Part shown: positions 2,192-54,332 of the stretch, piece by piece
Layout of the letters: every line of letters begins with the position of its first letter
Numbering within the stretch: position 1 is the stretch's first letter
NCBI RefSeq assembly: GCF_000015285.1
Contig: NC_008709.1
Span: 1,798,001-1,862,000, forward strand
Source: Psychromonas ingrahamii 37
Lineage (GTDB): Bacteria; Pseudomonadota; Gammaproteobacteria; Enterobacterales; Psychromonadaceae
DNA: 64,000 nucleotides
Direction of reading: 5' to 3'
Notes under the pieces: generated by a model
Told to the model about the DNA's origin: nothing
Databases searched by the model: none
What the model saw: the letters and a program-made list of their open reading frames with translations, nothing else
Program-made: the position numbers and the translations under genes

Positions 2192-2277
2192 TGGTTATTC
2201 CAGAAATTTTTATGGCGGCTGATAGTTTATCCAATATAAGCTCTATTGAATATTCAGAATCGGATGGCGGCGAATAA
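2191..2277 (+). CDS. 28-codon mini-ORF between recC and recB, a duplicated recC tail
   Basis: A 28-residue reading frame joined by TAATG overlaps to recC upstream and recB downstream, so ribosomes could pass recC, mini-ORF and recB by translational coupling. Its C-terminus (SNISSIEYSESDGGE) resembles the last residues of RecC (SNIKPIDYDDLDGDE), and the DNA is alignable over about 75 bp including the identical GAATAATGG at each end. I infer a diverged tandem duplication of the recC 3' end. Whether a peptide is made, or the ORF only couples translation, cannot be told from sequence. Confidence 0.4.
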   Translation: MVIPEIFMAADSLSNISSIEYSESDGGE

Positions 2278-5200
2278 TGGATAAATTAAATAAAATGAAT
2301 ACCACTAAAACAGAACTTGTCGTCCAACCGCTTAATGCATTAACTTTTCCTCTGTACGGGCAACGTTTAATTGAAGCCTCTGCAGGCACAGGTAAAACCT
2401 ATACCATTGCCAGTTTGTTTATTCGCCTGTTACTCGGTCACGGTGAACAGGCTGCGCATCAAGGTCCTTTGACCGTTGACCAAATTTTAGTGGTCACTTT
2501 TACCGAAGCTGCAACAGCCGAGCTACGTAACCGTATTAGAGAGCGTATTCAAGATGTACGTTTAGATTTTATTCAAGGTGAGAGTGATAATCCTTTTACC
2601 CAAAGTTTGCTTAAGGAAGTAGTCGATCATCAGGTTGCTATTCGTTTATTACGTTTTGCTGAACTGCAAATGGATGAAGCTGCTATCTTTACTATTCATG
2701 GTTTCTGCCAGCGAATGCTGATGCAAAATGCCTTTGAGTCGGGCAGTTTATTCGAACAAAATTTATTAGAGGACGATGCTCAGTTATTACAGTTAGCCTG
2801 CAATGATTTCTGGCGCACTTTTTTCTATGGTTTATCCACACCTCTGACCGAACTTATTTTTAGTTATTGGGAGAATCCCGGGCAGCTGCAGAAAAATTTA
2901 CGGCCGTTTTTATCACGCAGCGATCTGCATTTTTTACCGAAAATTAATGATTTTGATTTTAAAGCTAAGTATGAGCGCAGTATATCATTCATTGAAACCC
3001 TTAAAATAAACTGGCTTAATGATCAGTCGGATTATGCTGATATTATTACCCATTCCGCGGTTTCTAAACGCAGCTATAGCAAGAAAAATATCCCTAACTG
3101 GTTGAAAGAGGTCTCTCAATGGGCGTTAACCTCCAGCGCCAGTTTAAGTTTACCTAAAAGCCTGGTTAAATTTTCACAAAAAACATTAGATGAAAAAACA
3201 CCCAAGGGTGAGATCCCAACACATCCGGTCTTTAGTGAGATTGAAGCGCTGTTAGCATTGGACCTCTCATTAGAAAATACTATTTTGGTAAAAGCCACCC
3301 ATTGGGTGCAAGCACATCTGCAATCAAATAAAAATAAACAGATGTTATTGGGTTTTGATGACTTGTTAACACGCTTGGATGCGGCACTGCAAAACGGCAA
3401 TGAAAAGAGTCTTGCCTTGAATATTAGGACGGCATATCCGATTGCTCTGATCGATGAATTTCAAGATACCGATCCGGTTCAATACCGTATTTTTACCACT
3501 ATTTATCAGTCCCTTGAAGGCGAAGATTCCGAACCGCTTGATAAAAGTCTGGGTTTATTTATGATTGGCGATCCCAAGCAGGCGATTTACAGCTTTCGTG
3601 GCGCTGATATTTTTACCTATATGAAAGCGCGCCAGAATGTCAGTGCGCATTACAGCTTGGATTATAACTATCGTTCCACGCCCGAAATGATTGATGCTAG
3701 TAATACCTTTTTTGAATTTTGTCCCGCACCCTTTATTTATAATGATGATATCCCCTTTAGTGCGGTGCAGGCACCCGATAAGCGACGTAAAAAATTAGTG
3801 GTGGAGAATAAAGACGATCCTGCCCAAAGCGCATTACAGTTTATTCACCCCGTTGGCGGAGAAAATAGTCAAGGTTTCAAAGATTCAATAACCCATGCCT
3901 GTATCAATGAAATCAAAAAAATACTGTTATTAGCCCAGCAGGATAAGGCTTATCTGGAAGATAAAAAGGGTAAAAGAAGTATTATTAGGGCAAACCATAT
4001 CGCAGTCCTAGTGCGCACTGGAAAAGAAGCACAGTTGATTCGTAACGCTTTATTTAATGAAAATATTAACAGTGTTTATTTGTCACTCAAAGAGAGTGTC
4101 TATGCAACATCCCATGCAAAGGACCTATTGCGTATTTTACAGGCTTGTTTAAACCCTGAAAATGAGCGTTTATTACGCGCAGCGATCGCCTGTAAACTGT
4201 TCTGTCAAACACCTTATCAAGTGCATCAAATTTTATTGAATACCCGCTTATGGGAAGAGAAAATAGGGCAATTTATAGAGTACCGCAGACAATGGCGCAG
4301 TGTGGGTATTTTGGCAATGTTACATAAATTATTTCATCAACAGGCAATAAGCGCTTATTTACTTAAAGATACTCAGGGCGAACGTTTATTAACAGACGTA
4401 TTACATTTAGCGGAGTTATTACAAAAAAACAGTGTTGACCATGATGGTGAGTTTGCTTTGTTACGCTGGTTCGGTGAGCAGATAAAACAAGGAAATAGCG
4501 GTGAAAGTGAGCAAAAACAACGTTTAGAAAGTGAAAAAGATCTGGTTCAGGTGAGTACGTTACATAAAGCAAAAGGGCTACAATACGATATTGTGTTTAT
4601 GCCTTTTACGGGGTTATATCAAAAACCTCAAGCCTGTTTATATCATGATCCTGACCAGAATAATGCGCTTATTTTTGATCTGCAAAATACCAAGAATAAT
4701 GCTGCCCTCGCTGAAAAAGAGCAGCTGGCGGAAGATTTGCGCTTATTGTATGTCGGTCTGACGCGCAGTGTTTACCGTTGTTACATTGGTATTGGCAATT
4801 ACAAAAAAGGGCGCGAGAAAAATAGTCCGCTGTGTAAAAGCGCGCTGGGTTATATCTGCTTACAGGCGGGTAAGGGTCTGTTAGCCGGTGATACCGAACA
4901 ATTAAATAAACAGTTACAAAAAATGGCTGACAATAGTCTGAATATAAGCATCCGCCCAACGCCATTGTTGGATGAAACGCACTATCAGGCCAGACAAAGC
5001 GATCAACCTTTACAAGCCCCCTTGGTGCTCGGAAAACAGGTTGAAAGGAATTGGTGGATCAGCAGTTATTCATCATTGTCACGCTTTCATACACAGACTA
5101 ATACTCAGGTAGCTTCAGTGACACCTACCGTTATGCCTATAGATAATATCAGCAATGAACAGACTGAAGTGTCACCCGCTATTTTAACCAGTCCCGAAAA

Positions 5201-5957
5201 AACACCCTTTAGTTTTCCCCGAGGGGCTAAGCACGGCACCTTTCTACATGAATTATTTGAGTTAACTAACCTTGAAAATATGGAAACTGAAACGCTCAAT
5301 GAACTGTTATTTGAGCAACTCTTATTACGCCATTATCCGGATCCGGAATTGTGGGCTCCAGTATTAACCGCTTGGATAGAGCAGATTCTAGGTCATGACT
5401 TAGCTGCCGGCGCTGATATTAAATTAGGTGATTTGTCTGCCCAGCAGAAAAAAATTGAAATGCAGTTTTTTATTCCCATGCAGGAACTGCAGGCAAATGA
5501 GGTCAATAACCTATTAAAAAAATATGATCCATTATCTGCGCGTGCGGGGGAGTTGCAGTTTCGGACAGTACAGGGGTTTTTAAAAGGTTTTATCGATTTA
5601 ACATTCGAAAAAAATGGACAATATTACGTGCTTGATTATAAATCTAATCATCTTGGTGACTGTTTGCAGGATTATAATCAAACTAGTATGGAGCAGGCCT
5701 TGATTGAACACCGCTACGATTTTCAATACCAGCTTTATACTCTGGCGCTGCATCGTCTGCTTAAATCTCGTTTAGCAGATTACGATTATGAAACCCATAT
5801 TGGCGGGGTTTTTTATACCTTTTTACGGGGTATGCAGGGCGAACAGGAATACGGCGTTTATTTTGTTAAACCCAGTTTTAGTCTGATAGACGGGCTTGAT
5901 AAACTGTTTTCAGGGCAAAAAAACAGTGCTAAATCAACAGTGGAGCCGATATGTTAA
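2277..5957 (+). CDS. recB: RecB, exonuclease V beta subunit (helicase-nuclease)
   Basis: 1,226 residues, the normal RecB length. RecB is the 3'-5' SF1 helicase and the only nuclease of RecBCD, and loads RecA after Chi. Visible motifs: Walker A ASAGTGKT at residues 34-41, motif II IDEFQDTD near 390, GDPKQAIYSFRGAD near 425, TLHKAKGLQYD near 757, motif VI LLYVGLTRS near 822, and the nuclease core LDYKSNHLG near 1,120 with its catalytic Asp and Lys. The chosen ATG overlaps the mini-ORF stop. The 3' end overlaps recD by 7 bases. Confidence 0.97.
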   Translation: MDKLNKMNTTKTELVVQPLNALTFPLYGQRLIEASAGTGKTYTIASLFIRLLLGHGEQAAHQGPLTVDQILVVTFTEAATAELRNRIRERIQDVRLDFIQGESDNPFTQSLLKEVVDHQVAIRLLRFAELQMDEAAIFTIHGFCQRMLMQNAFESGSLFEQNLLEDDAQLLQLACNDFWRTFFYGLSTPLTELIFSYWENPGQLQKNLRPFLSRSDLHFLPKINDFDFKAKYERSISFIETLKINWLNDQSDYADIITHSAVSKRSYSKKNIPNWLKEVSQWALTSSASLSLPKSLVKFSQKTLDEKTPKGEIPTHPVFSEIEALLALDLSLENTILVKATHWVQAHLQSNKNKQMLLGFDDLLTRLDAALQNGNEKSLALNIRTAYPIALIDEFQDTDPVQYRIFTTIYQSLEGEDSEPLDKSLGLFMIGDPKQAIYSFRGADIFTYMKARQNVSAHYSLDYNYRSTPEMIDASNTFFEFCPAPFIYNDDIPFSAVQAPDKRRKKLVVENKDDPAQSALQFIHPVGGENSQGFKDSITHACINEIKKILLLAQQDKAYLEDKKGKRSIIRANHIAVLVRTGKEAQLIRNALFNENINSVYLSLKESVYATSHAKDLLRILQACLNPENERLLRAAIACKLFCQTPYQVHQILLNTRLWEEKIGQFIEYRRQWRSVGILAMLHKLFHQQAISAYLLKDTQGERLLTDVLHLAELLQKNSVDHDGEFALLRWFGEQIKQGNSGESEQKQRLESEKDLVQVSTLHKAKGLQYDIVFMPFTGLYQKPQACLYHDPDQNNALIFDLQNTKNNAALAEKEQLAEDLRLLYVGLTRSVYRCYIGIGNYKKGREKNSPLCKSALGYICLQAGKGLLAGDTEQLNKQLQKMADNSLNISIRPTPLLDETHYQARQSDQPLQAPLVLGKQVERNWWISSYSSLSRFHTQTNTQVASVTPTVMPIDNISNEQTEVSPAILTSPEKTPFSFPRGAKHGTFLHELFELTNLENMETETLNELLFEQLLLRHYPDPELWAPVLTAWIEQILGHDLAAGADIKLGDLSAQQKKIEMQFFIPMQELQANEVNNLLKKYDPLSARAGELQFRTVQGFLKGFIDLTFEKNGQYYVLDYKSNHLGDCLQDYNQTSMEQALIEHRYDFQYQLYTLALHRLLKSRLADYDYETHIGGVFYTFLRGMQGEQEYGVYFVKPSFSLIDGLDKLFSGQKNSAKSTVEPIC

Positions 5958-8047
5958 CACAACTAAAACAATGGAAAGAGCAGGGGCTATTACGTTCAAT
6001 TGATTACCATTTTGCAGCCTTTATGGCGGAAATGGGGGCGGATAAATTAACCCAGTTAAGTGCTGCCTTCTGCAGTGAATATCTGGGTCTTGGGCATATC
6101 TGTTTACCCGTTGAAGAAATCATTATCCGTTTAAATGATAAATGTTCGTTAAGTGAACTTGATTTGCAGGGGTTTTGCCGGGAACATGATATGGAATGTT
6201 TATTGCAGAATAATTTTGAGGCACATGCGTTATTAAGTAGTTCAATCTGTGTGGGTGATAATGCCCCCCTGTGTTTACAGTTTAATGCCTTGTATCTTAC
6301 CCGTTACGCCCTGTTTGAGCAGCTTATCGCTGATAAATTATTGGATCAACCTAAGTTGTCCTTGGGTTCTGATATCAAGGTGGAACTCGATGTTTTATTT
6401 GCCACCAATTATACCTATTTATGGCAGGATTGGTGCCGCGATCCAAGACAACCCCTGCCTTTATTATGTGAAAAATATATTGATCTTCTCCCTGGATCGA
6501 CAGTTGACTGGGTAGGAGTTGAACAGTTATTTAGTCAGGCCGAAAATGCGCAGGATTTACAACCCTTAGGATCCTTGATTCCGGAAAATAAACGCTGTAA
6601 CTGGCAAAAGGTCAGTGCTGCATTAGCCTTGACTACTGCGCGATGTGTTATCTCAGGAGGGCCCGGCACGGGTAAAACTACGACTGTTACTAAACTGCTC
6701 GCCTTGCTGCTGAAATTTCAACCAACACTGTTGATTAAATTGGTTGCTCCAACGGGAAAAGCTGCTGCGCGTTTAACAGAATCTATTACCCATGCCTTAG
6801 TGGAATTAAACATTGAGCCGGGCATTAAAGACAAAATGCCCAAGGTGGCGACGACCATTCACCGCTTGTTGGGGGTAAAAGCCAACAGTAATCACTTTCG
6901 TTTTAACCAGGATGAAAAATTAAATGTCGATCTGCTGGTGGTGGATGAAGCTTCGATGGTCGATTTGCCGCTGATGGCAAAATTATTAATGGCGCTACCG
7001 GATCATGCCCGCCTGATATTATTAGGTGATAAAGACCAGCTGGCATCGGTTGAAGCGGGAGCTGTTTTAGGGGATATTTGCCATTTTATTGAATCGGGAT
7101 ACAGTGCTAAAAAAGCGCAGCTGTTGGCAGATTTAACGGGTTATACCTCGTTAACCAAGACCGCCCCTCGGTCACCTAATATGGCTGATAATTTATGTTT
7201 GCTGCGTAAAAGTTACCGTTTTGACCAATACTCGGGGATTGGCTATTTAGCCAAGGCGATTAATAGCGGCCGCGCAAACAGCAAAAAGGTGATGGCGTTA
7301 TGTGATGATTATAATGATTTGCAGCACTATCCGAATACTGAGTTGGGTAAAAAAGAGTTGGCAGCTCTGGTCTTGGAAGGTTATCGTCCCTATTTACAAA
7401 ACCTGTCGACTATTACCGTAGACAATCGAAACCTTGCGGGGCAACTATTAAAGCAGTTTAACCAATTTAAAATATTATGTGCGACGCGCGAAGGGGAGTG
7501 GGGAGTCAAGTGTTTAAATAAACTCTGCGAAACGGTATTAGAAAAAGCAGGCCTGTTAACGACCGGGCAAGTGCACAAGGATCCGCAACATGCCTATGTT
7601 TATTGGTATGTCGGTCGTCCGGTTATGATAACCCAAAACAATTATCATTTAGGTTTATATAATGGTGATATTGGCCTGTGTTTATTAGATGAATCTTTAC
7701 AGTTACGTGTTTATTTCCAAATGCCCGATGCGTCTATTGCCGATTTTCAGCCAAGTCGTTTGCCCAACCATGAAACTGTTTTTGCCATGACGGTACATAA
7801 AAGCCAGGGATCTGAGTTTGAGCACACTGTATTAGCATTACCTGAAAATCACGTCTCTGTGGTCAGCCGAGAACTCATTTATACCGCTATTACCCGCGCA
7901 AAAAAACAGTTGACGCTGTTTGCCGATTTATCCTTAATGGCCAGTGCGATGCGCCATAAAACAAAACGTTTTAGCCGTTTAGTTGAGCGTTTAAAAAGCC
8001 CATCCGTAACCCTTGCAGAAAAAGTTAAACAGAAAATAAAAGAATAA
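5951..8047 (+). CDS. recD: RecD, exonuclease V alpha subunit (5'-3' helicase)
   Basis: 698 residues. RecD is the fast 5'-3' SF1B helicase of RecBCD and keeps the complex processive. Motifs: Walker A GGPGTGKTTT near residue 236, Walker B VVDEASMVD near 327, MTVHKSQGSEF near 612 and YTAITRAK near 643. The ATG lies inside the last codons of recB, so translation is probably coupled. It is the last gene of the recC-recB-recD operon; a large palindrome follows. Confidence 0.96.
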   Translation: MLTQLKQWKEQGLLRSIDYHFAAFMAEMGADKLTQLSAAFCSEYLGLGHICLPVEEIIIRLNDKCSLSELDLQGFCREHDMECLLQNNFEAHALLSSSICVGDNAPLCLQFNALYLTRYALFEQLIADKLLDQPKLSLGSDIKVELDVLFATNYTYLWQDWCRDPRQPLPLLCEKYIDLLPGSTVDWVGVEQLFSQAENAQDLQPLGSLIPENKRCNWQKVSAALALTTARCVISGGPGTGKTTTVTKLLALLLKFQPTLLIKLVAPTGKAAARLTESITHALVELNIEPGIKDKMPKVATTIHRLLGVKANSNHFRFNQDEKLNVDLLVVDEASMVDLPLMAKLLMALPDHARLILLGDKDQLASVEAGAVLGDICHFIESGYSAKKAQLLADLTGYTSLTKTAPRSPNMADNLCLLRKSYRFDQYSGIGYLAKAINSGRANSKKVMALCDDYNDLQHYPNTELGKKELAALVLEGYRPYLQNLSTITVDNRNLAGQLLKQFNQFKILCATREGEWGVKCLNKLCETVLEKAGLLTTGQVHKDPQHAYVYWYVGRPVMITQNNYHLGLYNGDIGLCLLDESLQLRVYFQMPDASIADFQPSRLPNHETVFAMTVHKSQGSEFEHTVLALPENHVSVVSRELIYTAITRAKKQLTLFADLSLMASAMRHKTKRFSRLVERLKSPSVTLAEKVKQKIKE

Positions 8048-8116
8048 AGTGGCAGCTGGGATTAGCTTAATGAAAACCCCGGCTTACAAGGTGGAATGAG
8101 TTGCTTATCAAACCAC

Positions 8117-8168
8117 AGTAATTCTCATTTTATTAGTCAATGCATTGATTAATAAAATGAGAATTACT
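8117..8168. repeat. 52-bp near-perfect palindrome
   Basis: Two 26-base arms meet at a central TGCA with no spacer; the only mismatch is a G/T pair at arm position 20 (G·U in RNA). The left arm begins AGTAATTCTCATTTTATTA. It lies 70 bases after the recD stop and 72 before ybaK. There is no T-run on either side, so it is not an ordinary intrinsic terminator. It could be a solo palindromic repeat, an mRNA-stabilising hairpin or a protein-binding site. Confidence 0.85.
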
Positions 8169-8240
8169 TAGTTATAGGTACTGCGCTAAAACGCGTCTAA
8201 ACAGCAGCAAAAAAAATTGCTTTATAAGGTAGAAAGAAAG

Positions 8241-8708
8241 ATGACACCAGCCGTTGATCTCCTTAATAAACACAAAATGAAATTTAAAATTCATCAATAC
8301 CAGCACGATAAAAACTGTGATGCCTATGGATTGGAAGCCGCCCAGAAAATGGGGATTGATGGACAGCTGGTTTTTAAAACATTAGTGGTCAATGTTGATA
8401 ATGAAAATCTGCTAGTGTGCATTTTACCCGTAACCAAAATGCTCAACTTGAAAAAAGTGGCTAAAGTCTGCACTGCTAAAAAAGTGGTCTTGGCAGATAA
8501 ACAAGCAGTGCTTCGTTCAACGGGTTATGTACTTGGTGGAGTGAGTCCCTTGGGGCAGAAAAAACGTTTAAAAACTGTCTTAGATAATAGTGCATTAGCA
8601 TTGCAGTGCCTTTATGTGAGTGCGGGGAAAAGAGGGCTGGAGATAGCATTAAATCCAACGGATTTAATCAACCTCACAAATGCACTTAACGCTGATATTT
8701 GCCAATAA
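8241..8708 (+). CDS. ybaK: YbaK/EbsC family Cys-tRNA(Pro) deacylase
   Basis: 155 residues. YbaK hydrolyses Cys-tRNA(Pro) formed when prolyl-tRNA synthetase mischarges cysteine, acting in trans in the cytoplasm. The family pattern is clear: DKNCDAYGLEAAQ near residue 25, LVFKTLVVNVD with the conserved lysine near 48, and GGVSPLGQKK near 100. The ATG at 8241 follows a purine-rich AGAAAGAAAG; an upstream extension to 8217 starting with TTG lacks homology. The end overlaps spurious frame before the next gene's true start at 8753. Confidence 0.9.
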   Translation: MTPAVDLLNKHKMKFKIHQYQHDKNCDAYGLEAAQKMGIDGQLVFKTLVVNVDNENLLVCILPVTKMLNLKKVAKVCTAKKVVLADKQAVLRSTGYVLGGVSPLGQKKRLKTVLDNSALALQCLYVSAGKRGLEIALNPTDLINLTNALNADICQ

Positions 8709-8752
8709 ACCTTATAATACTTATCATTCGACCACTTTGGGAATATTCTTTA

Positions 8753-9691
8753 ATGTTAAAATTAATCAATTTAGGTTTGTTATCTGGTTTGTTTTTCAGT
8801 GCTACCTTTGTGTTAAATGAAATAATGAGTGAGCAGGGGGGGCACTGGTTTTGGTCTGCATCATTACGCTATCTGTTTATGGTTATTTTTTTGCTGATCA
8901 TTGCTTTATTAAGTGATGGGATTAAACAGTTAAAACAACTGTTGCAGCTTTTTTTACAGCATGCTGTCTTTTGGATTGTCACCGGCAGTATCGGATTCGG
9001 GGCTTTTTATGCGTTAATCTGTTTTAGTGCAGATTATTCCCCCGGTTGGATTATCGCCGCTACCTGGCAATTTACTATTGTTGCCAGTTTATTGGTCTTA
9101 ATGTTGTTTGGCAGACGGTTTCCGTCTCGTGTCTGGTTATTTTCCACCATGATTTTTTTCGGCGTTTTATTGATTAATTTATCTCAGGCCACGGAGGTCA
9201 GCATTAATCAGCTTTTATTTGGTGCTTTGCCGGTGTTATTAGCGGCTTTTTGTTACCCTTTGGGTAATCAACTGGTCTGGGAAGTACGTCAGGGACAGCA
9301 TAAAAAGTTACCAAAAATTCATTCTCCACTGTTAGATAAAGCCTTTAATAAAGTGTTATTAATGTCATTAGGTTCCATACCTATGTGGATCGTTCTGGGT
9401 TTATTTGTGCAGCCTGGTTTGCCGGAGAAGAGTCAGATATTAAATACCGCGCTGGTGGCTTTATTTTCCGGTGTGATAGCTACCAGTATCTTTATTTATG
9501 CCCGTACTAAAGCGACCAAAGCCAGTGAATTAGCAGGGGTTGATGCCACTCAAGCGAGTGAAGTGGTATTTGCTATGATAGCCGGTTTGATATTACTTAA
9601 TTCTGTACAAATAAACCTGCTGGCAATCTGCGGCTTAGCGTTTGTTTTTATAGGATTAGGTTTTTTCGTGCTATATCAAAATAGGCCATAA
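8753..9691 (+). CDS. DMT-superfamily multidrug-resistance-type transporter
   Basis: 312 residues with about ten hydrophobic helices, two EamA-like halves, and a polar linker near residues 185-200 (GQHKKLPKIHS). The second half has the KATKASELAGVDATQASEVVF segment, also with small and polar residues typical of this class. It fits the EmrE-like multidrug resistance efflux group of the drug/metabolite transporter superfamily in the inner membrane; the substrate cannot be told. I chose the ATG at 8753 because an upstream extension overlaps ybaK and adds an unlikely leader. Confidence 0.75.
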   Translation: MLKLINLGLLSGLFFSATFVLNEIMSEQGGHWFWSASLRYLFMVIFLLIIALLSDGIKQLKQLLQLFLQHAVFWIVTGSIGFGAFYALICFSADYSPGWIIAATWQFTIVASLLVLMLFGRRFPSRVWLFSTMIFFGVLLINLSQATEVSINQLLFGALPVLLAAFCYPLGNQLVWEVRQGQHKKLPKIHSPLLDKAFNKVLLMSLGSIPMWIVLGLFVQPGLPEKSQILNTALVALFSGVIATSIFIYARTKATKASELAGVDATQASEVVFAMIAGLILLNSVQINLLAICGLAFVFIGLGFFVLYQNRP

Positions 9692-45388: not shown

Positions 45389-45653
45389 ATATACCCATGA
45401 TACTTCAAGATGTAAAGTCAGCAAGGAAAATTGTGCTGAGATGCTAGGCATAAAATTGAAGTATAGTTATTCTACATAGAGATTTTATAACAACGCAGAT
45501 TGGCACAATTTACCTTGCCCTACGGGGCGCAAGGTCGAAAACCAGCGCTGCGTTGCACCAATCGAAAAGGGAATAACCATTACCTCATGTTGCGTCTTGC
45601 TCTGGTCTCCGCCCTTGCGCCTGACAAAGCATTTTGAAGTAACATGGGTATAT
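45389..45653. mobile_element. 265-bp MITE with 24-bp terminal inverted repeats
   Basis: Left end 45389-45412 reads ATATACCCATGATACTTCAA then GATG; the complement of the right end (45630-45653) matches it at 22 of 24 positions. There is no transposase inside, so it is a non-autonomous element. The interior has GC-rich stretches unlike the flanks. A TA or TATA target is likely from the flanks but not certain. Related ends occur at 22946, 39104 and 47207. Confidence 0.8.
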
Positions 45654-45704
45654 CCTAAATCAATACCATAATGTAAAAGTAGTCTATAAGAAGGAGGTCG
45701 CACA

Positions 45705-45977
45705 ATGGAGTATTTATGGGATCAAGCTCAATTTATCGCACCAGGCTTAATAGTGATGGTAACTAATAGCTTAGGTGATAAATTAGGTACCGAAGCGGTA
45801 AATATTAAGACCGGCAGAGTTGAGGTAATGTGCAAGCCCCATCAAGTCACAGTGCAGAACGATGGGGATTGTTTTTGGTTAGCATCGGGAAAAATGCCAA
45901 ATATTGATATCAGCCAAGATGAAGCTGATTTATTAGCTAAGTTACTGAAGGTTGAAATTGGAATGGGCACTAAATAA
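45705..45977 (+). CDS. Small protein of 90 residues, unknown function
   Basis: Not recognised. Begins MEYLWDQAQFIAPGLIVMVT and looks soluble, with alternating hydrophobic residues suggesting beta strands up to about residue 65 and an acidic C-terminal helix (DISQDEADLLAKLLKVE). GAAGGAGG before the ATG is close to a perfect ribosome binding site, which supports a real gene. It starts 52 bases after the MITE, which may now supply its promoter region. Confidence 0.65.
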   Translation: MEYLWDQAQFIAPGLIVMVTNSLGDKLGTEAVNIKTGRVEVMCKPHQVTVQNDGDCFWLASGKMPNIDISQDEADLLAKLLKVEIGMGTK

Positions 45978-46098
45978 ATACAGTATGTTAAACAAGATTC
46001 TTGCTTGCTGACGGAGAATCTCATTAGAGAGCCTGCTAATGCCTGTTGTTGTAAATAAACTATAATTTAGGTATATAACAATAAACAGGGTGATGACT

Positions 46099-47196
46099 AT
46101 GGATAAGCAACCGCCAGCGTTTTTCCCTACCCGCTATTGGCATAAAGAGGTGGGAAAACATCAGGGAGAGGACTTGGTTACTTGTGATTTATGTCCTCAT
46201 CATTGCCACCTGCGTGAAGGAAAACGTGGAATTTGTTACGTGCGTATGAATCATCAGGGTAAAATAGTACTGACCAGTTACGGCCATTCTTCGGGTTTTT
46301 GCATTGATCCGATTGAGAAAAAACCGCTTAACCATTTTTACCCCGGCTCAAGGGTGATGTCATTTGGCACCGCCGGTTGTAACCTCTCCTGCCAATTCTG
46401 CCAAAATTGGGAGATCAGTAAATCCCGTGAAATAGATACTCTTTGTGATACCGCTATGCCCGAACAACTGGCACGGGTTGCCAAAGAGCAGGGCTGTAAA
46501 AGTATCGCCTTTACTTATAACGATCCGGTGATCTTTATGGAATATGCCATTGATGTTGCCATCGTTGCTAAAGCATTGGGACTCAAAAGTGTCGCAGTCA
46601 GTGCGGGTTATATGTGTGATCAGCCTAGAGTTGAATTCTATCGCCATATGGATGCCGCCAATATTGATTTAAAAGGCTTTACCGAGGCGTTCTATCATAA
46701 AATCTGCCACGGGCAGTTACAACCCGTATTAGATACCCTGTTATATCTTAAACATCACACCTCGGTCTGGTTGGAAATTACCACTTTACTGATCCCCGGT
46801 GAAAATGACAGCGATCAGGAATTACATAAAATGTGTCAATGGATAGCTGAAAACCTTGGCCTGAATGTACCGCTGCACTTCAGTGCTTTTCATCCTGATT
46901 TTAAAATGATGGATAAAGAGTCCACGCCACTAGCGACCCTATTACGCGCCAGAAAAATAGCGTTGAGCTATGGCCTGCATCATGTGTATTGTGGCAATGT
47001 GCATGATAGCAAGTCAGACAGTACTTATTGTCCACATTGCCAAGATTTGCTGATTGAAAGGGACTGGTATCAGTTGGGACAATATAACCTCGACGAGTTC
47101 GGGCACTGTTTGAATTGCGGGGAGCTATTGGCAGGGCGGTTTGCCAGAACGAAAGAAAATTTTGGCCGGCGGCGAGTACCCGTCAAAATAGGATGA
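46099..47196 (+). CDS. AmrS-type radical SAM protein
   Basis: 365 residues. Radical SAM cluster motif CNLSCQFCQNW near residue 98 (the family's C-x3-C-x2-C), an N-terminal zinc-like CDLCPHHCHLREGKRGIC near 28, and further CxxC pairs near the C-terminus (YCPHCQD, CLNCGE). This matches the radical SAM enzyme of the AmmeMemoRadiSam system, but no Memo or AMMECR1 gene is next to it. The product is unknown. I took ATG 46099 because AGGG lies eight bases before it. Its last codons are duplicated at 51619. Confidence 0.85.
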   Translation: MDKQPPAFFPTRYWHKEVGKHQGEDLVTCDLCPHHCHLREGKRGICYVRMNHQGKIVLTSYGHSSGFCIDPIEKKPLNHFYPGSRVMSFGTAGCNLSCQFCQNWEISKSREIDTLCDTAMPEQLARVAKEQGCKSIAFTYNDPVIFMEYAIDVAIVAKALGLKSVAVSAGYMCDQPRVEFYRHMDAANIDLKGFTEAFYHKICHGQLQPVLDTLLYLKHHTSVWLEITTLLIPGENDSDQELHKMCQWIAENLGLNVPLHFSAFHPDFKMMDKESTPLATLLRARKIALSYGLHHVYCGNVHDSKSDSTYCPHCQDLLIERDWYQLGQYNLDEFGHCLNCGELLAGRFARTKENFGRRRVPVKIG

Positions 47197-47206
47197 CAGT
47201 ATTGTC

Positions 47207-47252
47207 TATACCTAAACTATTTGAAGATGCATCCTCAAGTAGTTTGAGTATA
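47207..47252. repeat. 46-bp palindrome of the dispersed family
   Basis: 23-bp arms meet at TGCA and pair at 19 of 23 positions. The arm TATACCTAAACTATTTGAAG resembles MITE ends at 45389, as if two ends had been joined head to head. The right copy of the island repeat has only the first dozen bases of it. Confidence 0.65.
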
Positions 47253-47290
47253 AAACCTATTTTCGTTAATTTAAGACGAATTTTAATTTG

Positions 47291-47412
47291 TTATTTTTCC
47301 TAAACAAATACCTGCACCCTATTATCGATTACTCTAACCGGATAAGTCACAATATTTTCAAATGCGGGTGCAGATAATACGGCGCCTTTTTATATTAAAG
47401 CCACCATGACGC
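47291..47412 (-). pseudogene. 3' fragment of the Rieske ferredoxin gene (duplicate)
   Basis: Corresponds to the last 40 codons of the intact Rieske gene at 51706-52023, with single-base and three-base deletions near 47387-47403 that break the frame. The remaining 100 bases up to the TPR gene show nothing recognisable. Confidence 0.75.
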
Positions 47413-47511
47413 TGGAAAATTCTTTCTGTTGTACTTTCTTTTGGGTTTCTTTTTTTTAATATTACTGAATTTAAGTTGAAAAGTGTCAACTTATCTCAGG
47501 ACGATTATGGC

Positions 47512-49374
47512 TTATAGTTGCGTCAGAAGCACGCCAGCCGCATCTGCCCAATTCGCCTTTGAATTGATTGAAAGGGCTTTTTCAATAGCTACTTTTGCTT
47601 CAGCACGTCGACCTGTTTTATCCAGCACCACACCCTTGTGATACCATATAACAGCAGCTTCCGGTGCAAGCTTGTTTGCATTATCCAGCACCTCTAGTGA
47701 TTCATTCAGGTTACCCTGTTTGTAGAGAACCCAACCTAACGTATCCAGTATGCTGGCATTATCACTCACCACACCGACAGCGCGTCTTGCCATCGTTTCC
47801 GCTTCGTTATGATCACCTTTATCAGCAAGGATGTTAGCCAGATTATTTAATGCCAGCGCATGATTGGGTACTGCCTGAATTATTTTTCGATAGAGAGTTT
47901 CTGCCTCATCAAAACGTTTATTTGCTTCTAACTGAGTCGCATAGAAGATGGCTGGCTCAGTTCTGTTGGGTTGCAATACATAGAGTCGAGCGGCGGCATT
48001 GACGGCATCCTCGTTGTGGTCAGTGCGTGCAAGTGCCAACGCATATACTTTCCAGATAGCGATATCATCAGCTGAAAGCTCTGTGGCTTTTTCCAGTATA
48101 GGGAGTGATTCCTCGTAACTTCTGATAGATGCCAGGTAACTTCCCAGCCTCAGGTGCAAATAGGCATCGTTCGGGAAACGTTCAATGCCGTTACGCAATA
48201 TAAGCTCACCTTTTTCGATATTGCCTTCACCCATCAATAATTCGGATAATTGACCATAGGTGAACACATCTGCAGTTTTATCATCGACCATCGCCTGATA
48301 AATATCACGCGCCTGTGCAAAATCCTTATTATCGAGGTGAAATTTGGCGATACGTTGATTGACATAACTGCGGCTTAAGCCTAGTGCAACGGCTTCATTG
48401 AAGGCGCTGTTGGCTTTTTTTCTTTGGTCTAACCTCAGTAAAATCTCGCCTTTTTCCATCTGCGCCAGAGCAGAATCTGGTTTTTGTTTAACAAGTTTAT
48501 TTATCGTCTTCATAGCGGCAGAAAAATCACTTTCGCCACGTTGTGCCTTGGCAAGCCCAAGCAATGCCTTAGGCATCGACAGCCCTGACTGCAATACATG
48601 CTGAAATCGCATGCGAGCGTCGAGGTAATTGCCGGTTGCCAGATAGGCAGTTGCTAGCACCATTTGTGCATCAGTATTCGTCTCGTAAAGTAAGACGCGC
48701 GGCTCAAGTACCGCAATGGTCACAGCAAAGTTGCCTGATTTATTCAATAAGCGCCCAAGATTGACGGCAACACCGAGATAAGATTCATGGGTTCCTTCGA
48801 GGCCAAGTTGAAAATGATGTATCGCTCGCTGGTCCTTAGCCTGATATTCATATAACAAACCAAGGCGTTGATGTGCAAACCGATCTGCTGGAGTAATTTC
48901 TATCGCCTTCAACAATAATTTTTCCGCTTCGAAAATATCACCACTCTCCATCTTGATTATGCCCAATTTAGTCAGTGCTCCACTCTGCCCGGGCTCTAGC
49001 TCGATCGCTTTTTGTAATGAGGTGGCCGCCTTTTCCTGCTGTTTGTTGAGAAAATAGGCGGTGCCAAGTACTTCATTTGCCAGACCTGAATTCGGATTAT
49101 TTTTTAATACAGTGTTCGCTTTTTCGATAGCCGTTGCATAGTCTTTGATCGCCAATAAATTATTGATATCAGAAAAAGCCTTTGCATCAGGCCTGTTGGA
49201 CAAGTCAATAATATCGCCTTGCTCGTGTCTATCGATTAAAAATGTTGACTGCAGCAACTGCATTGAGATAGCTTGTGGGGATGAAATTAACAGCAGGGTA
49301 GCGAACATCAAAGAGTAAATAATAGAATTACCTGTTAGTCTTTGACGGCCGGTTTTTACTATCGATGCAATCAT
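47512..49374 (-). CDS. Tetratricopeptide-repeat protein, PEP-CTERM-associated type
   Basis: 620 residues. An N-terminal hydrophobic segment (residues 18-38, SIIYSLMFATLLLISSPQ) suggests export or a membrane anchor. The rest is at least twelve TPR units with the usual W/L-G-Y/A/F pattern, for example ALNNLANILADKGDHNEAE near 520 and ILDTLGWVLYKQGNLNESLE near 553. It resembles the TPR protein PrsT of PEP-CTERM/exosortase systems, though without its partners I leave the symbol out. GGGAGC precedes the ATG. Same strand as, and downstream of, the PEP-CTERM gene. Confidence 0.8.
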   Translation of the reverse strand: MIASIVKTGRQRLTGNSIIYSLMFATLLLISSPQAISMQLLQSTFLIDRHEQGDIIDLSNRPDAKAFSDINNLLAIKDYATAIEKANTVLKNNPNSGLANEVLGTAYFLNKQQEKAATSLQKAIELEPGQSGALTKLGIIKMESGDIFEAEKLLLKAIEITPADRFAHQRLGLLYEYQAKDQRAIHHFQLGLEGTHESYLGVAVNLGRLLNKSGNFAVTIAVLEPRVLLYETNTDAQMVLATAYLATGNYLDARMRFQHVLQSGLSMPKALLGLAKAQRGESDFSAAMKTINKLVKQKPDSALAQMEKGEILLRLDQRKKANSAFNEAVALGLSRSYVNQRIAKFHLDNKDFAQARDIYQAMVDDKTADVFTYGQLSELLMGEGNIEKGELILRNGIERFPNDAYLHLRLGSYLASIRSYEESLPILEKATELSADDIAIWKVYALALARTDHNEDAVNAAARLYVLQPNRTEPAIFYATQLEANKRFDEAETLYRKIIQAVPNHALALNNLANILADKGDHNEAETMARRAVGVVSDNASILDTLGWVLYKQGNLNESLEVLDNANKLAPEAAVIWYHKGVVLDKTGRRAEAKVAIEKALSINSKANWADAAGVLLTQL

Positions 49375-49485
49375 TTTTAAGCTCCCTGAATTTTTATAGT
49401 GTGATGGGTAAGATGCTCATCATTTGTTATAAAACCATGACGTTGTAAATTATATATTTTTAATTATTTGCTATGTTTATCATAA

Positions 49486-49516
49486 GAAAAAGAAAAGGGA
49501 CCCGAAGGTCGCTTTT
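49486..49516 (-). terminator. Rho-independent terminator with TTCG loop
   Basis: On the minus strand: AAAAGCGACC, loop TTCG, GGTCCCTTTT, then a T-rich tract. One C-C mismatch. It ends the PEP-CTERM gene and separates it from the TPR gene. Confidence 0.8.
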
Positions 49517-49555
49517 CTTGTCTAACATGACAAAGCTGTAAACTGTAGGTCGTCT

Positions 49556-50602
49556 TTAGCTGCGACGTTTACGCGTGGCACCCATACCGATTAGACCCAG
49601 ACCCAACAGAGCCAGCATACCAGGCTCTGGTACGGAGCTTACTGTAATTGTATCTCTTTCTGCAGCAGTGGTACTGCCATCAACAAGTGCGAGGGTATCA
49701 AAACCATGCACCCCTTCAGCCATACCGGTGAATGTTACGTCGTACTCGAAGGTTCGCTCAACACTACGGTCGAAAGAACCAGTCGCATCACCACCAACAC
49801 ACGCACCTGAATCTGCAGAGACACAGGTAGCCGAGAAACCAACACCCGGCATACCACCACCGAGATCATCGACAGTGACCGCTGAGTAAGTGTCAAATGT
49901 TGTACCAACACTGTTAAGAATAGTCGTAACGAGACCAGCAGTATCCAGACCAACTCCACTATATGCAGTACCGCCAAGATCAGCAATATCAGCTGAGAAA
50001 GCTCCGTCGTAGCTAATACCAATCAAGTTAGCATTGGCTGCAGTCAATGAAGCAATTGTTGCCGCTTCTGTTGGTGGCGTTTTGAAGTTGGCATCGCCAA
50101 AAGCGATGATGAAACGGTTTGAACCTGGACGCCAGCTGGCGGTATCAGCCGCATCACTGATACCAGCATAACCCATTTCAGGGGTGTCGCCACCACTACC
50201 AGAAATAAATGGAACCGTGCTGATACCTGATGTTACATCAGTGTTACCTGAATTTAGATCAACTCGAACCCCATCAAAAGTCGGGTCGTTGTACCAACCG
50301 GAACCTGACTGCAGCAAACCGAATCCTGCCAGACCAGTCAAAATGGAATTTGCAGCTGCTTTAGCCTGATTAATTTCAGTTCCCATAGACCCCGTTGTGT
50401 CGAAAATAAACATAACGTCAAGTGGTGCTGTGGTAGGTGATTCTTTAGTGATAGTGACTGTTTTACGAATGGTTACGCTATCGCCGAGACCTAGTGTAGT
50501 AGCATAAACTGCCGGATCGATTGAATCCGCTATTGCAGAGAATGGCGTCATAATAATTGCAGCAAGGGCAAACGTCGCCCCTTTTATCAACTTAATATTC
50601 AT
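49556..50602 (-). CDS. PEP-CTERM anchored von Willebrand A domain protein
   Basis: 348 residues. Signal peptide (MNIKLIKGATFALAAIIM), then a VWA domain with the metal-binding site FDTTGSMG near residue 71 and a second acidic position in FGDANF near 170. A beta-rich region follows and the C-terminus is a classic PEP-CTERM signal: SVPEPGMLALLGLGLIGMGA followed by RKRRS. Exosortase should cut and anchor it at the cell surface. No exosortase is in the window. The gene is richer in GC than its neighbours. ATG 50602 follows GAGGA by eight bases. Confidence 0.9.
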   Translation of the reverse strand: MNIKLIKGATFALAAIIMTPFSAIADSIDPAVYATTLGLGDSVTIRKTVTITKESPTTAPLDVMFIFDTTGSMGTEINQAKAAANSILTGLAGFGLLQSGSGWYNDPTFDGVRVDLNSGNTDVTSGISTVPFISGSGGDTPEMGYAGISDAADTASWRPGSNRFIIAFGDANFKTPPTEAATIASLTAANANLIGISYDGAFSADIADLGGTAYSGVGLDTAGLVTTILNSVGTTFDTYSAVTVDDLGGGMPGVGFSATCVSADSGACVGGDATGSFDRSVERTFEYDVTFTGMAEGVHGFDTLALVDGSTTAAERDTITVSSVPEPGMLALLGLGLIGMGATRKRRS

Positions 50603-51106
50603 AATTATTTCCTCGTTTATTAACATTTAATCTGCATGAAATTGTTCTCAGCAAAAAGTTTGTGGATATTATTTACATGCATGTCAGATAGAATTTATAA
50701 ATCAAATTATTAATCCTCCCACTTAACTCTTAGCAAAATATGTGCCAATATAATTTAATTAATAAAAACAGTGAGGTAGAGTATTTTAATCAATCACGAG
50801 ATTAGAATTGAAGAAAAAGTTGTAAATTAAAGTGACACCTCGGTAATCGATCAATGATTGACTGCAGAAGGATTTTTTTTAAGGTGTTGTTTTATATTAT
50901 TTAATTTTTTTTATTACAGGATTGAGCACTGTAAGTTTTATCGACAGTTAAATAGCCGCGACTGTAAATACCTCATTAAGATAGATCCAATCAAGAGGGG
51001 TAACCAGAAGGTAACCATAGTCACTCTGGCCTTTTTTTTGATCTCTGTTATTTCTTGTTGTAAATGAATATAAAAACCTATTTTTAAAAATAAGCTTAAG
51101 AAAAGC
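50603..51106. other. AT-rich gap between PEP-CTERM gene and IS3 remnant
   Basis: About 500 bases without a gene. The first 150 presumably hold the minus-strand promoter of the PEP-CTERM gene. A weak plus-strand hairpin near 51008-51036 (CCAGA/TCTGG then eight Ts) looks like a terminator without a visible gene in front of it. Confidence 0.45.
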
Positions 51107-51573
51107 TTCAAATATGATTTGTCAAATCAAGCTTATGTTGGGGATATCACTTATGTTTGGACGACCTAATTCTGGTTATATCTTATTGTTGTTATTGATT
51201 TATATGCTAGAAAAGTAGGTGGATGGAGCATGTCATCATGAATGAAGGCAAGTCTTGAATATGATACATTTTGTGCATTCAGATCAAGGTGTTCAAGATG
51301 CAAGTGATAAATATCGAAGCTGCTCAAGACCCTCAGCTCACAGCGAGTATGAGCAAAAAAGGCAGCTATTGGGTAACGCGGTGGCAGAAAGTTTTTTTTG
51401 GCAGCCTAAAGCAGGAAAGAGTGCATTGGAACAATTATGCTACTCGCTATGAAGCACAACAATATATATTGAATTATGTAACTGTGTGGCACAACCGCAA
51501 TCGTCTTCATTCTTACGTGGGCTATTGTTGCCCGAACGCTTTTGAAATGATGAACGGTTATTTGAAAAAGTAG
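51107..51573 (+). pseudogene. IS3-family transposase (OrfB) remnant
   Basis: C-terminal part of an IS3-family integrase-type transposase. NQAYVGDITYVWTT and LYLIVVIDLYARKVGGWSMSS can be read from 51107 with stops inside; the end, from about 51340, is open and reads MSKKGSYWV ... FFGSLKQERVHWNNYATRYEA and HSYVGYCCPNAFE. The 5' half of the element is gone. It lies directly against the right boundary repeat of the island. Confidence 0.85.
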
Positions 51574-51618
51574 CTTAACTAAGTTAACTAAGGTGAATGA
51601 AATTAGTTGACCACGTCA

Positions 51619-51832
51619 GAAAATTTTGGTCGGCGGCGAATACCTGTCATAATAGGATGACAGTATAGTCTATACCTAAACTTATTTTGTTATTTTGTTA
51701 TTTTGTTATTTTTCATGAAGAAATACCTGTACCTCATTGTCGATTATTCTAACCGGATAAGTTGCAATATTTTCAAATGCGGGGGCAGACAATACGGCGC
51801 CTGTTTTTATATTAAAGCGTGCACCATGACGC
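51619..51832. repeat. Diverged direct repeat, right copy (island boundary)
   Basis: Starts with a copy of the last codons of the radical SAM gene, still in frame to the stop (ENFGRRRIPVIIG against ENFGRRRVPVKIG), then the spacer with three TATTTTGT repeats, then the 3' part of the intact Rieske gene. See 47155-47412 for the alignment. Confidence 0.85.
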
Positions 51833-52023
51833 GGGCAGGTTATTTCTGCAGCGCAGATTTCTCCACCGTTTAACTCACCACCATCATGGCTGCATCTGTT
51901 CTCAATGGCGAAAAATTCACCCGCGATATTGATTAATAACAGCTCTATTTGATCTAACGCCAGCACTTTAGTCATGCCAGCGCTTAACTCATCTGCGGGT
52001 AAAACGCTTATCCATTTTGCCAT
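51706..52023 (-). CDS. Rieske [2Fe-2S] ferredoxin-like protein of the suf operon
   Basis: 105 residues. The Rieske cluster ligands are in CSHDGG near residue 43 and CPRHGA near 63 (Cys-x-His and Cys-x2-His). Such small Rieske proteins carry electrons for oxygenases or sit at the end of SUF operons; here it is 19 bases after sufT, so it probably assists Fe-S assembly or its electron supply. Its 3' end is duplicated at 47291. Confidence 0.85.
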   Translation of the reverse strand: MAKWISVLPADELSAGMTKVLALDQIELLLINIAGEFFAIENRCSHDGGELNGGEICAAEITCPRHGARFNIKTGAVLSAPAFENIATYPVRIIDNEVQVFLHEK

Positions 52024-52042
52024 TCTATAAACTCCTCATTTT

Positions 52043-52582
52043 TTATAGCAGCCCCAGCTGCAGTTTTGCCGCATCGGAGACCATTTCGTAACTCCATGGA
52101 GGATCAAAGACAATAGCCACCTCAACCTTATCAACATTGGCCAGAGCCAGACATTTACGTTTTATCTCATCAGCTATCACCGTGCCCATAGCACAACCGG
52201 TGGCAGTCAAAGTCATCGTTATACGCACAAGATTTCGCCCATCAATTAATTGATAGCAGTTAACGTCATAGATCAAGCCGAGTTCTACAATATTGATAGG
52301 GATCTCAGGGTCATAACAGCTTTTAAGCTGTTCATAGAGTTGTACAAAGTTGACTTCATGATCGGCTGTATTTTCTTTGCTGGTGGCTATTAGCGCAGGT
52401 TTTCCAAGCGCATCGCTATCTTCGTTGCCCACACGTAATAACTGCCCGTGATAATTAAGTGTGTAACTGCCACCCAATGCCTGAGTAATAACAACTTCAT
52501 CACCTTCCTTAAGGGTAATAGTTTCCCCATATGGAATAGTAATGGCTTTACAATCGCGTAATACAGTCAGGTGTTCAAACAT
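52043..52582 (-). CDS. sufT: SufT, long-form Fe-S assembly factor (MIP18/DUF59)
   Basis: 179 residues. The second half is a MIP18-type domain (DPEIPINIVELGLIYDV near residue 92, the conserved cysteine in ATGCAMGTVI near 130 and FDPPWS near 160); the first half is a beta-rich extension (PYGETITLKEGDEVVITQALGG) found in the long SufT family of proteobacterial SUF operons. SufT helps Fe-S maturation under high demand. ATG 52582 follows GGAG by eight bases and lies a few bases after the sufU stop. Confidence 0.88.
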   Translation of the reverse strand: MFEHLTVLRDCKAITIPYGETITLKEGDEVVITQALGGSYTLNYHGQLLRVGNEDSDALGKPALIATSKENTADHEVNFVQLYEQLKSCYDPEIPINIVELGLIYDVNCYQLIDGRNLVRITMTLTATGCAMGTVIADEIKRKCLALANVDKVEVAIVFDPPWSYEMVSDAAKLQLGLL

Positions 52583-52587
52583 GCTGT

Positions 52588-53058
52588 TCACTCCGTCGAA
52601 ACGATCTGCTTAGTGTTGATATTATTTAAGCAGGCATTAAGTGCGTGCCAGGGCAGGGTTGCGCACTTTATGCGGACGGGGAAATCTCTCACCCCACCTA
52701 ATACCGAGAGCTTGCCTAAGTACTCACGGATATTGTCAGGCGGCTCAGCTTGCGTGACTAAGTTCTGAAAAGCGGTAAACAGTTGCCGTGCTTCTGTCAC
52801 TGTCATATTTTTGATTCTTTCTGTCATCAATGAAGATGCCGCCATCGAGATAGCACAGCCTTCTCCCTCAAAACTGGCATCAATAATTCTATTATCATCA
52901 ATTCGCAAATAAAGTGTCAAACGGTCACCACAGAGCGGGTTGTATCCTTCTTGAGTGCAACTCGGATGCTCAAGCTTTTTGGAATTTCTCGGACGGCGGC
53001 CATGGTCAATGATCACTTCCTGATACAATGCGCGTAGTTCATCATTCATCTTATTCAC
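52588..53058 (-). CDS. sufU: SufU, SUF sulfur-transfer/scaffold protein
   Basis: 156 residues. IscU-like fold with the SufU cysteines NPLCGD near residue 42, GEGCAIS near 67 and IKCATLPW near 130. In Bacillus, SufU is a zinc protein that takes sulfur from SufS; a similar role is inferred here since SufE is missing. It overlaps sufS by four bases (ATGA). Confidence 0.92.
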   Translation of the reverse strand: MNKMNDELRALYQEVIIDHGRRPRNSKKLEHPSCTQEGYNPLCGDRLTLYLRIDDNRIIDASFEGEGCAISMAASSLMTERIKNMTVTEARQLFTAFQNLVTQAEPPDNIREYLGKLSVLGGVRDFPVRIKCATLPWHALNACLNNINTKQIVSTE

Positions 53059-54332
53059 CCATTTTTTATGGTAAAAATTTTGTTTACCAGCCGCAAACTT
53101 TGCACTAATTGTTCTATATCACTTTCATTATTGTAGAAAGAAAAGGAAGCGCGTGCGGTTGCCGGGACATTAAAACGGGTCATCACCGGCATCGCACAGT
53201 GATGACCTGCTCGAATTGCGACTCCCTGCTGATCAAGAATTGTACTTATATCATGAGGATGCGCGCTATCAAGCACAAAAGAGATAATACTGGCCTTGTG
53301 TTTTGCTTGGCCAATAATACGTAACCCGGCTGTTTGCTCTAATGCTTTGGTGGCATAATCTAATAACTGTTGTTCGCGTTGGCAAATATTGTCAAGACCT
53401 ATCGTGTTGATGTAATCGAGGGCAGCAGCCAGACCTACCACACCCGCAATATTAGGTGTACCTGCCTCAAATTTGTAAGGTAAGCCGTTATAGTCACTGC
53501 TCTCAAAACTGACTCGACTGATCATTTCCCCACCTCCCTGATAGGGCTCCATTGCATCAAGGTAGCTTTTTTTGCCATATAACACGCCGACTCCGGTAGG
53601 GCCGTAAATTTTGTGACTGGAAAAGGTGTAGAATTCACAATCTAAAGCCTGCAGATTGATCCTGAGATGAGGGGCTGCTTGAGCACCATCAAGTAATACC
53701 GGTATTCCTCTAGCATGCGCCATGGTTATCATTCGCTGCACCGGTGCAATACTCCCCAAAGCATTGGAGAGATGGGTGATTGCCACTATTTTAGTTTTTT
53801 CACTTAATAATGCCTGATAACTATCCAGCATAATCTCCCCGTTATCATTGATTGGTATAACCTTTAGCTGTGCGCCGGTTTGTTTGCAGACCATTTGCCA
53901 GGGAACTATATTGGAATGATGCTCTATCGCACTGATCAAGATCTCATCTCCTGATTTGAAGCGGGGCCGGGCATAACTCTGTGCGACCAGATTAATAGCC
54001 TCAGTCGCACCGCGGACGAAAATAATTTCCTCTCGCAACCTGGCATTTAAAAAACACTGTATTTTATCCCTTGCTGCCTCAAAAGTGGCAGTAGCCCGCT
54101 CACTTAATTGATAAATACCACGATGAACATTGGCATTATCAAAACGATAAAAGTGCGCGATACTATCAATCACACTATTGGGTTTTTGCGTCGTTGCGGC
54201 ATTATCGAGATAAGCTAAGGGTTTATTATACGGTTTTTGTGCTAACAGAGGAAAATCACGCCGAATTGCCGGCCAATCAACCTTGTTTAATGGCAAACTG
54301 CCATGCTCTGCTGGTCGGTCGACTAAGGACAT
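53055..54332 (-). CDS. sufS: SufS, group II cysteine desulfurase
   Basis: 425 residues. PLP enzyme that takes sulfur from cysteine as a persulfide. The PLP lysine is in FSSHKIYGPTGVGVL near residue 235 and the catalytic cysteine in IRAGHHCAMPVM near 378, the group II signature. The N-terminus AYLDNAATTQKP near 42 is also typical. It overlaps sufD by ten bases. Confidence 0.96.
   Translation of the reverse strand: MSLVDRPAEHGSLPLNKVDWPAIRRDFPLLAQKPYNKPLAYLDNAATTQKPNSVIDSIAHFYRFDNANVHRGIYQLSERATATFEAARDKIQCFLNARLREEIIFVRGATEAINLVAQSYARPRFKSGDEILISAIEHHSNIVPWQMVCKQTGAQLKVIPINDNGEIMLDSYQALLSEKTKIVAITHLSNALGSIAPVQRMITMAHARGIPVLLDGAQAAPHLRINLQALDCEFYTFSSHKIYGPTGVGVLYGKKSYLDAMEPYQGGGEMISRVSFESSDYNGLPYKFEAGTPNIAGVVGLAAALDYINTIGLDNICQREQQLLDYATKALEQTAGLRIIGQAKHKASIISFVLDSAHPHDISTILDQQGVAIRAGHHCAMPVMTRFNVPATARASFSFYNNESDIEQLVQSLRLVNKIFTIKNG

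Follow-up and report, generated by a model that had tools for sequence, protein, structure and literature searches.

The closest described counterpart of the locus presented here comes from a study of conjugation in E. coli, in which a partial duplication was detected by its PCR product in 56 of 60 Lac- clones; the 14 clones that were sequenced had duplications 109-950 bp in length, which the authors ascribed to trimmed circles integrated by a single crossover (PMC3240628). Similarly, in T6SS orphan immunity gene arrays, foreign modules are thought to have been inserted by one-sided homology, leaving remnants of gene ends (PMC5361080).

Here, we describe a 4.2-kb island of Psychromonas ingrahamii 37, which lies in a 64,000-nucleotide stretch of contig NC_008709.1 (positions 1,798,001 to 1,862,000); this whole stretch is referred to as the window, and coordinates are those of the window unless another locus is named. 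Like events of Campbell-type integration, in which non-replicating DNA enters through a trimmed end of homology (PMC3240628), it shows a partial direct duplication, here of ~230 bp. Unlike those events, the present one appears old and natural, with diverged copies, its right end has been redefined by an IS3 terminus, and there are no vector genes. It also differs from the T6SS arrays, in which old effectors are displaced (PMC5361080), since here both neighbouring genes are whole, and they are different genes.

The island carries two cargo genes, and for these too there are points of comparison. The TPR protein has PrsT, the TPR protein of the XrtA/PEP-CTERM system (TIGR02917), as its best NCBIfam match; unlike PrsT it stays below the cut-off, has 620 aa against 899 in the profile, and is paired with a VWA protein. 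The pair has the same gene order as a vWA-TPR pair on the Pseudorhodobacter turbinis plasmid NZ_CP039966.1, although the sorting tag is PEP-CTERM here and VPLPA-CTERM there, and no direct repeats of ≥40 nt surround the plasmid pair in the 12.9-kb stretch searched.

The event is explained in outline by known processes and belongs to ordinary bacterial genome evolution. It has left a readable fossil of foreign-DNA uptake, in which cargo, target, empty site, and later trimming by an insertion sequence (IS) are each visible, and it brings to light a rare pair of VWA and TPR genes. What is new is the IS-defined right edge, the evidence from a palindrome, and the sporadic VWA-TPR pair with its exchanged sorting tags.

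The duplicated junction

The island is framed by two genes. On its left lies the complete gene of an AmmeMemoRadiSam-system radical SAM enzyme (46090-47196, forward strand), the product of which scores 618 bits against TIGR04337 (cut-off 220) and has an orthologue in G021, a genome of the same genus. On its right lies the complete gene of a 105-aa Rieske ferredoxin (51706-52023, reverse strand; PF00355, 63.6 bits, cut-off 20.3), with an 86% relative in G021. The first-pass annotation had proposed that direct copies of the junction between these genes bound the island, with a whole radical SAM gene and a Rieske 3' end on the left, and the last radical SAM codons and a whole Rieske gene on the right. 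Both a repeat search and BLASTN bear this out. The left copy (47155-47428, forward strand) consists of the radical SAM tail, a spacer, and a broken 3' end of the Rieske gene; the right copy (51619-51848, forward strand) consists of the last 13 radical SAM codons, a spacer, and the 3' part of the intact Rieske gene.

The copies had been expected to align when checked by computer, and they do so in two BLASTN segments, one of 151 columns at 84.8% identity (E 4e-37) and one of 70 columns at 91.4% (E 1e-21). The repeat search returned two collinear direct-repeat families, one at a spacing of 4415 (47283-47395 and 51698-51810, 87%), the other at 4464 (47149-47218 and 51613-51682, 90%), the first 6 bases of the latter being, on the right side, the end of the IS. 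A third piece of 27 nt (47402-47428 and 51822-51848) is 81% identical. In right-copy coordinates, the duplicated stretch thus measures ~230 bp and its copies are 85-91% identical; the homology proposed earlier stands, while the size given for it (about 165 bases) needs to be replaced by this value. The two families are the sole direct repeats between 20000 and 64000 at a minimum length of 60 and a seed of 13, and the E-values together with this uniqueness within 44 kb rule out a chance origin.

Sequence of the target locus is repeated directly on either side of the insert, as in the scar of a single crossover. An ordinary transposon target duplication, that is, a few bases at both ends of the element, is not what we see, because the repeat is ~230 bp long and derived from genes. 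Compared with the junction of G021, the left copy has ~65 extra bases by hand count, as well as small deletions. Read by eye, its Rieske fragment has a frameshift of 2 nt, has lost 3 nt, and meets a stop codon in its former frame, decay of the kind that would be expected of a useless gene fragment.

The empty site

When the radical SAM protein was searched in 41 genomes (this one included), the best relative, at 93% identity, was that of G021. In this genome the radical SAM and Rieske genes adjoin and converge without an island, the matched stretches being separated by 38 nt, a figure that includes the stop codons. Beyond the Rieske gene, the next five genes, PaaD-like and SUF genes as named by eye, follow in one order in both genomes. 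The first-pass annotation had held that the two genes would simply converge without the island, and had suggested looking for relatives in which they are adjacent. This arrangement is found in G021, the one relative with both genes, and the island is missing there; its cargo is likewise lacking in the relatives searched.

Of 24 same-genus genomes (again counting this one), 6 matched the junction and Rieske region to some extent; in four of these the matches span just 22-35 bases, and besides the present genome G021 alone matches along the region. In four further members of the genus (G001, G015, G022, and G023), the radical SAM search gave matches at 65-86% identity and the Rieske search gave none at E≤0.001; G001 is 85% complete. 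Since the genes are directly convergent in G021 and the downstream order is kept, we read the duplication of the junction as the derived state, on the strength of one relative with an empty site. It should be remembered that recombination between the repeats could itself generate an empty site such as that of G021.

Proposed integration by a single crossover

The reading that fits best, and to which we give about an even chance, is that foreign DNA bearing the VWA-TPR pair and a piece of the junction from a related bacterium was integrated by one homologous crossover. As we infer it, the foreign molecule, presumably a circle, would have carried the pair along with a short radical SAM/Rieske junction piece, and a single crossover within the junction would have duplicated the latter around the insert. 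This would leave the radical SAM gene whole on the left, the Rieske gene whole on the right, and each copy with a useless piece of the other gene; a partial duplication in which each gene is whole on one side is what a single crossover of foreign DNA with part of the junction accounts for. An IS3-family element would have been lodged in the right copy's radical SAM fragment, arriving either before or after the cargo. Its loss of 5' sequence would have taken any further duplicated sequence on the right with it, such that the IS terminus is now where the duplication starts. Point changes, the 2-nt frameshift, and the 3-nt deletion would then have eroded the useless fragments.

In favour of this reading are the duplicated junction with complementary complete genes, the empty convergent site of G021 with the Rieske gene and the next five in conserved order, a VWA gene that has no relatives in the sampled order, class, or phylum, a TPR gene that has none in the 40 other genomes searched at 1e-60, and the presence of the pair as a unit in a metagenome-assembled genome (MAG; L059) and on a plasmid. 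Against it, substitutions weakly pair the left copy with the right, and their divergence could be decay alone had the junction been duplicated in situ; moreover, the empty site comes from a single relative, and our searches found no donor genome with junction and cassette together.

The IS3 remnant and the right edge

The stretch immediately before the right copy (51070-51618, forward strand) is a remnant of an IS3-family element, the 3' part of a 1262-bp element as judged by alignment to a copy elsewhere in the genome (L047). It keeps element positions 679-880, 922-1234, and 1236-1262, the last of which ends at 51618; the right terminus is intact, 678 bp of the 5' part were not found, and there is an internal 41-nt gap. 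It does not qualify as an intact IS3 element, its open reading frame scoring 55.7 bits against a cut-off of 160 and the right terminus being the only one present. The genome holds three other matches. L047 is a 1262-bp element with terminal inverted repeats, from which we set its ends, and it finishes in the same 13 bases as the remnant; both of its ends are present, and its flanks show no clear target duplication. L048 shares 12 of the 13 bases, and L049 is a 48-base fragment in which the likeness stops before the terminus.

The right junction copy starts at 51619, one base past the IS3-type terminus at 51618. Because of this coincidence, we take the insertion of the IS into the radical SAM fragment to have fixed the edge on this side; the duplication may at first have extended beyond what is visible today. 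This differs from the earlier reading in that the right boundary is the edge of an insertion sequence.

The same coincidence speaks for a rival account, which we regard as unlikely but worth serious attention, whereby foreign DNA was joined between two sister chromosomes cut ~230 bp apart, through either a break or one-ended strand transfer by IS3 into the radical SAM tail. No homologous donor junction would be needed, and both copies would be native and identical at first. It must be set against this account that the target duplications of ordinary insertion sequences amount to a few bases. An abrupt IS edge opposite one homologous boundary would also be the outcome of homology-facilitated illegitimate recombination, in which linear DNA was anchored by homology on the left and joined without homology on the right, beside the IS end. 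We consider this highly improbable: the E. coli study gives a deletion as its predicted product and ascribes duplications to single crossover (PMC3240628).

The palindrome and the three junction sequences

Single-crossover integration predicts mosaic copies, one half of each being of donor ancestry, and the left spacer is of interest in this respect. It contains a dispersed palindrome of 46 nt (47207-47252, forward strand), with arms near TATACCCAAACT and a centre of GATGCATC, for which a hairpin of -16.7 kcal/mol was computed. There are at least seven further matches in the genome, L003-L008 among them, a lower bound given that 40 of 63 candidates were scored; six of the seven were read and are palindromic by eye. 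The right copy and G021 keep only the first arm of the palindrome, with an identical deletion junction. The right spacer (51680-51710) shows an 8-nt tandem expansion, having three TTATTTTG units, two more than the single unit of G021.

The lone arm is best read as a deletion common to the right copy and G021. Given this deletion, the left copy would not simply be a recent copy of the right one, and the sequence suggests that the left spacer is older or foreign. For duplication in situ, the 65-nt palindrome difference is awkward, as it requires either the identical deletion twice or regrowth of the palindrome.

The substitutions tell a different story. Over 202 columns, the distances are 0.109 (left-right), 0.134 (left-G021), and 0.134 (right-G021), which is nearly a star, and in bootstraps the left-right distance was the smallest in 72% and the right-G021 distance in 11%. 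The numbers are small and the lines of evidence disagree, the substitutions weakly pairing left with right, which speaks against mosaic copies, and the deletion pairing right with G021, which speaks for them. The slightly greater closeness of left and right is what duplication in situ would give, and since the seven flanking genes compared with G021 have dS values of 0.24-0.49, an 11% left-right divergence could be post-split decay; taken as a rough clock, these dS values do not separate the models. Likewise, the left Rieske fragment differs from the intact gene by so few codon changes that they do not distinguish decay from divergence of a donor.

Star-like distances and the common deletion would also suit a duplication and island that predate the split from G021, with G021 having lost the island by recombination between the copies and kept the short spacer. 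We hold this to be distinctly improbable, for it requires an extra loss, it predicts that the left-right distance should be the largest, although it is the smallest, and the other same-genus genomes have no relative of the TPR protein (1e-60) or of the VWA protein (1e-25; 20 of 23 listed in that search).

The earlier proposal had offered single-crossover integration or a large staggered-break duplication. Single crossover is the better fit, yet the indel and the substitutions do not agree on one choice among a foreign circle, duplication in situ, and a pre-split duplication. Its argument from the divergence of the copies, that the event is old or the copy foreign, holds up; its suggestion that the incoming copy came from a related strain would suit the deletion pattern and is not confirmed by the nearly star-like, weakly left-right substitutions.

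The cargo genes

Searches with Pfam and NCBIfam models confirm that the island carries, in addition to the IS3 remnant, a TPR gene and a PEP-CTERM VWA gene. The first (47512-49374, reverse strand) encodes a TPR-repeat protein recognised by Pfam TPR families; its score of 218.7 bits against TIGR02917 falls short of the equivalog cut-off of 312.2, so we do not call it PrsT. The second (49556-50626, reverse strand) encodes a 356-aa VWA-domain protein (PF25106, 34.8 bits, cut-off 27) with a C-terminal PEP-CTERM signal recognised by both PF07589 (28.1 bits, cut-off 20.7) and TIGR02595 (24.6 bits, cut-off 16). A D-x-T/S-G-S motif, which we take to be metal-site-like, is kept in five of five aligned VWA sequences. 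As the host genome carries an exosortase gene (178.8 bits, cut-off 25.7), the VWA protein is plausibly sorted to the surface. Judging from the domains, the VWA protein is probably sorted to the surface by the exosortase, and the TPR protein is probably exported as its partner.

Besides the IS3 remnant, no replication, conjugation, recombinase, or phage genes were recognised in the insert, a point against the single-crossover reading. As insertion targets, a tRNA was rejected, there being none in the window, and so was a known structured RNA, there being no Rfam match in 45500-53500. A comparison of island and flanks had been suggested, and neither GC nor third-position GC marks the island as foreign: third-position GC is 0.419 in the TPR gene and 0.356 in the VWA gene against 0.34-0.48 in ten neighbouring genes, and the maximum of the GC profile, 0.484, falls in the VWA gene, while the flanks shown reach 0.475. 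Composition being uninformative, the foreignness of the island rests on the distribution of its genes.

Distribution of the VWA-TPR pair

At E≤1e-60, the TPR protein was found in one of 41 genomes, namely this one, and the same-genus genomes have no relative of it. The VWA protein was found in this genome alone among 394 genomes of the order (1e-25), and likewise at 1e-20 among 369 genomes of the class and 398 of the phylum, samples which overlap; nor was there a same-genus relative among the 20 of 23 genomes listed at 1e-25. The VWA core had no match at 1e-10 in the 397 other genomes of the phylum. At E≤0.001, 9 of 41 genomes match, this one included, but the other eight match only parts of residues 221-356, the region of the sorting tag, and were rejected as relatives of the whole protein. 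Phage cargo was likewise rejected, on searches made with the VWA protein only: its core had no phage match (1e-6), and the protein had none in viral contigs.

Outside these samples, a scan of species genomes with the VWA protein gave one relative, the Ectothiorhodospiraceae MAG NORP100 (L059), where positions 1632-9271 hold three tandem VWA genes, 64-65% identical to ours, followed by a TPR gene at 57%; the tandem paralogues would represent local amplification. A pattern scan of species genomes with the TPR protein returned nothing, and this absence is weak evidence because the scan misses the 57% relative in the MAG. Among plasmids, the VWA protein found one match, on the circular Pseudorhodobacter turbinis plasmid (L060, 5959-8623), in which a VWA gene is followed by that of a tetratricopeptide protein and an IS3-family transposase lies ~3 kb away. 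The VWA proteins are 36% identical over a 298-aa core (38% in the alignment) and the TPR proteins 26% over 330 columns. Searched back in plasmids at 1e-15, the Pseudorhodobacter VWA relative finds only itself; our TPR protein has no plasmid match at 1e-30, a threshold too strict to recover even the Pseudorhodobacter TPR gene.

To judge from these sequences, the VWA-TPR pair exists elsewhere as a unit that is rare and sporadic, and its sorting tag is exchanged. It is tempting, though doubtful, to see in it an undescribed mobile two-gene surface-display module that crosses proteobacterial classes with a C-terminal tag suited to the local sorting enzyme. Among openly licensed papers, we found none on PEP-CTERM with a VWA domain, or on PEP-CTERM with von Willebrand, tetratricopeptide, and exosortase together.

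As a separate observation, another PEP-CTERM-like gene, recognised by eye from a C-terminal VPEPP motif, is situated near the full-length IS3-family copy elsewhere in the genome (L047, 2666-3436).
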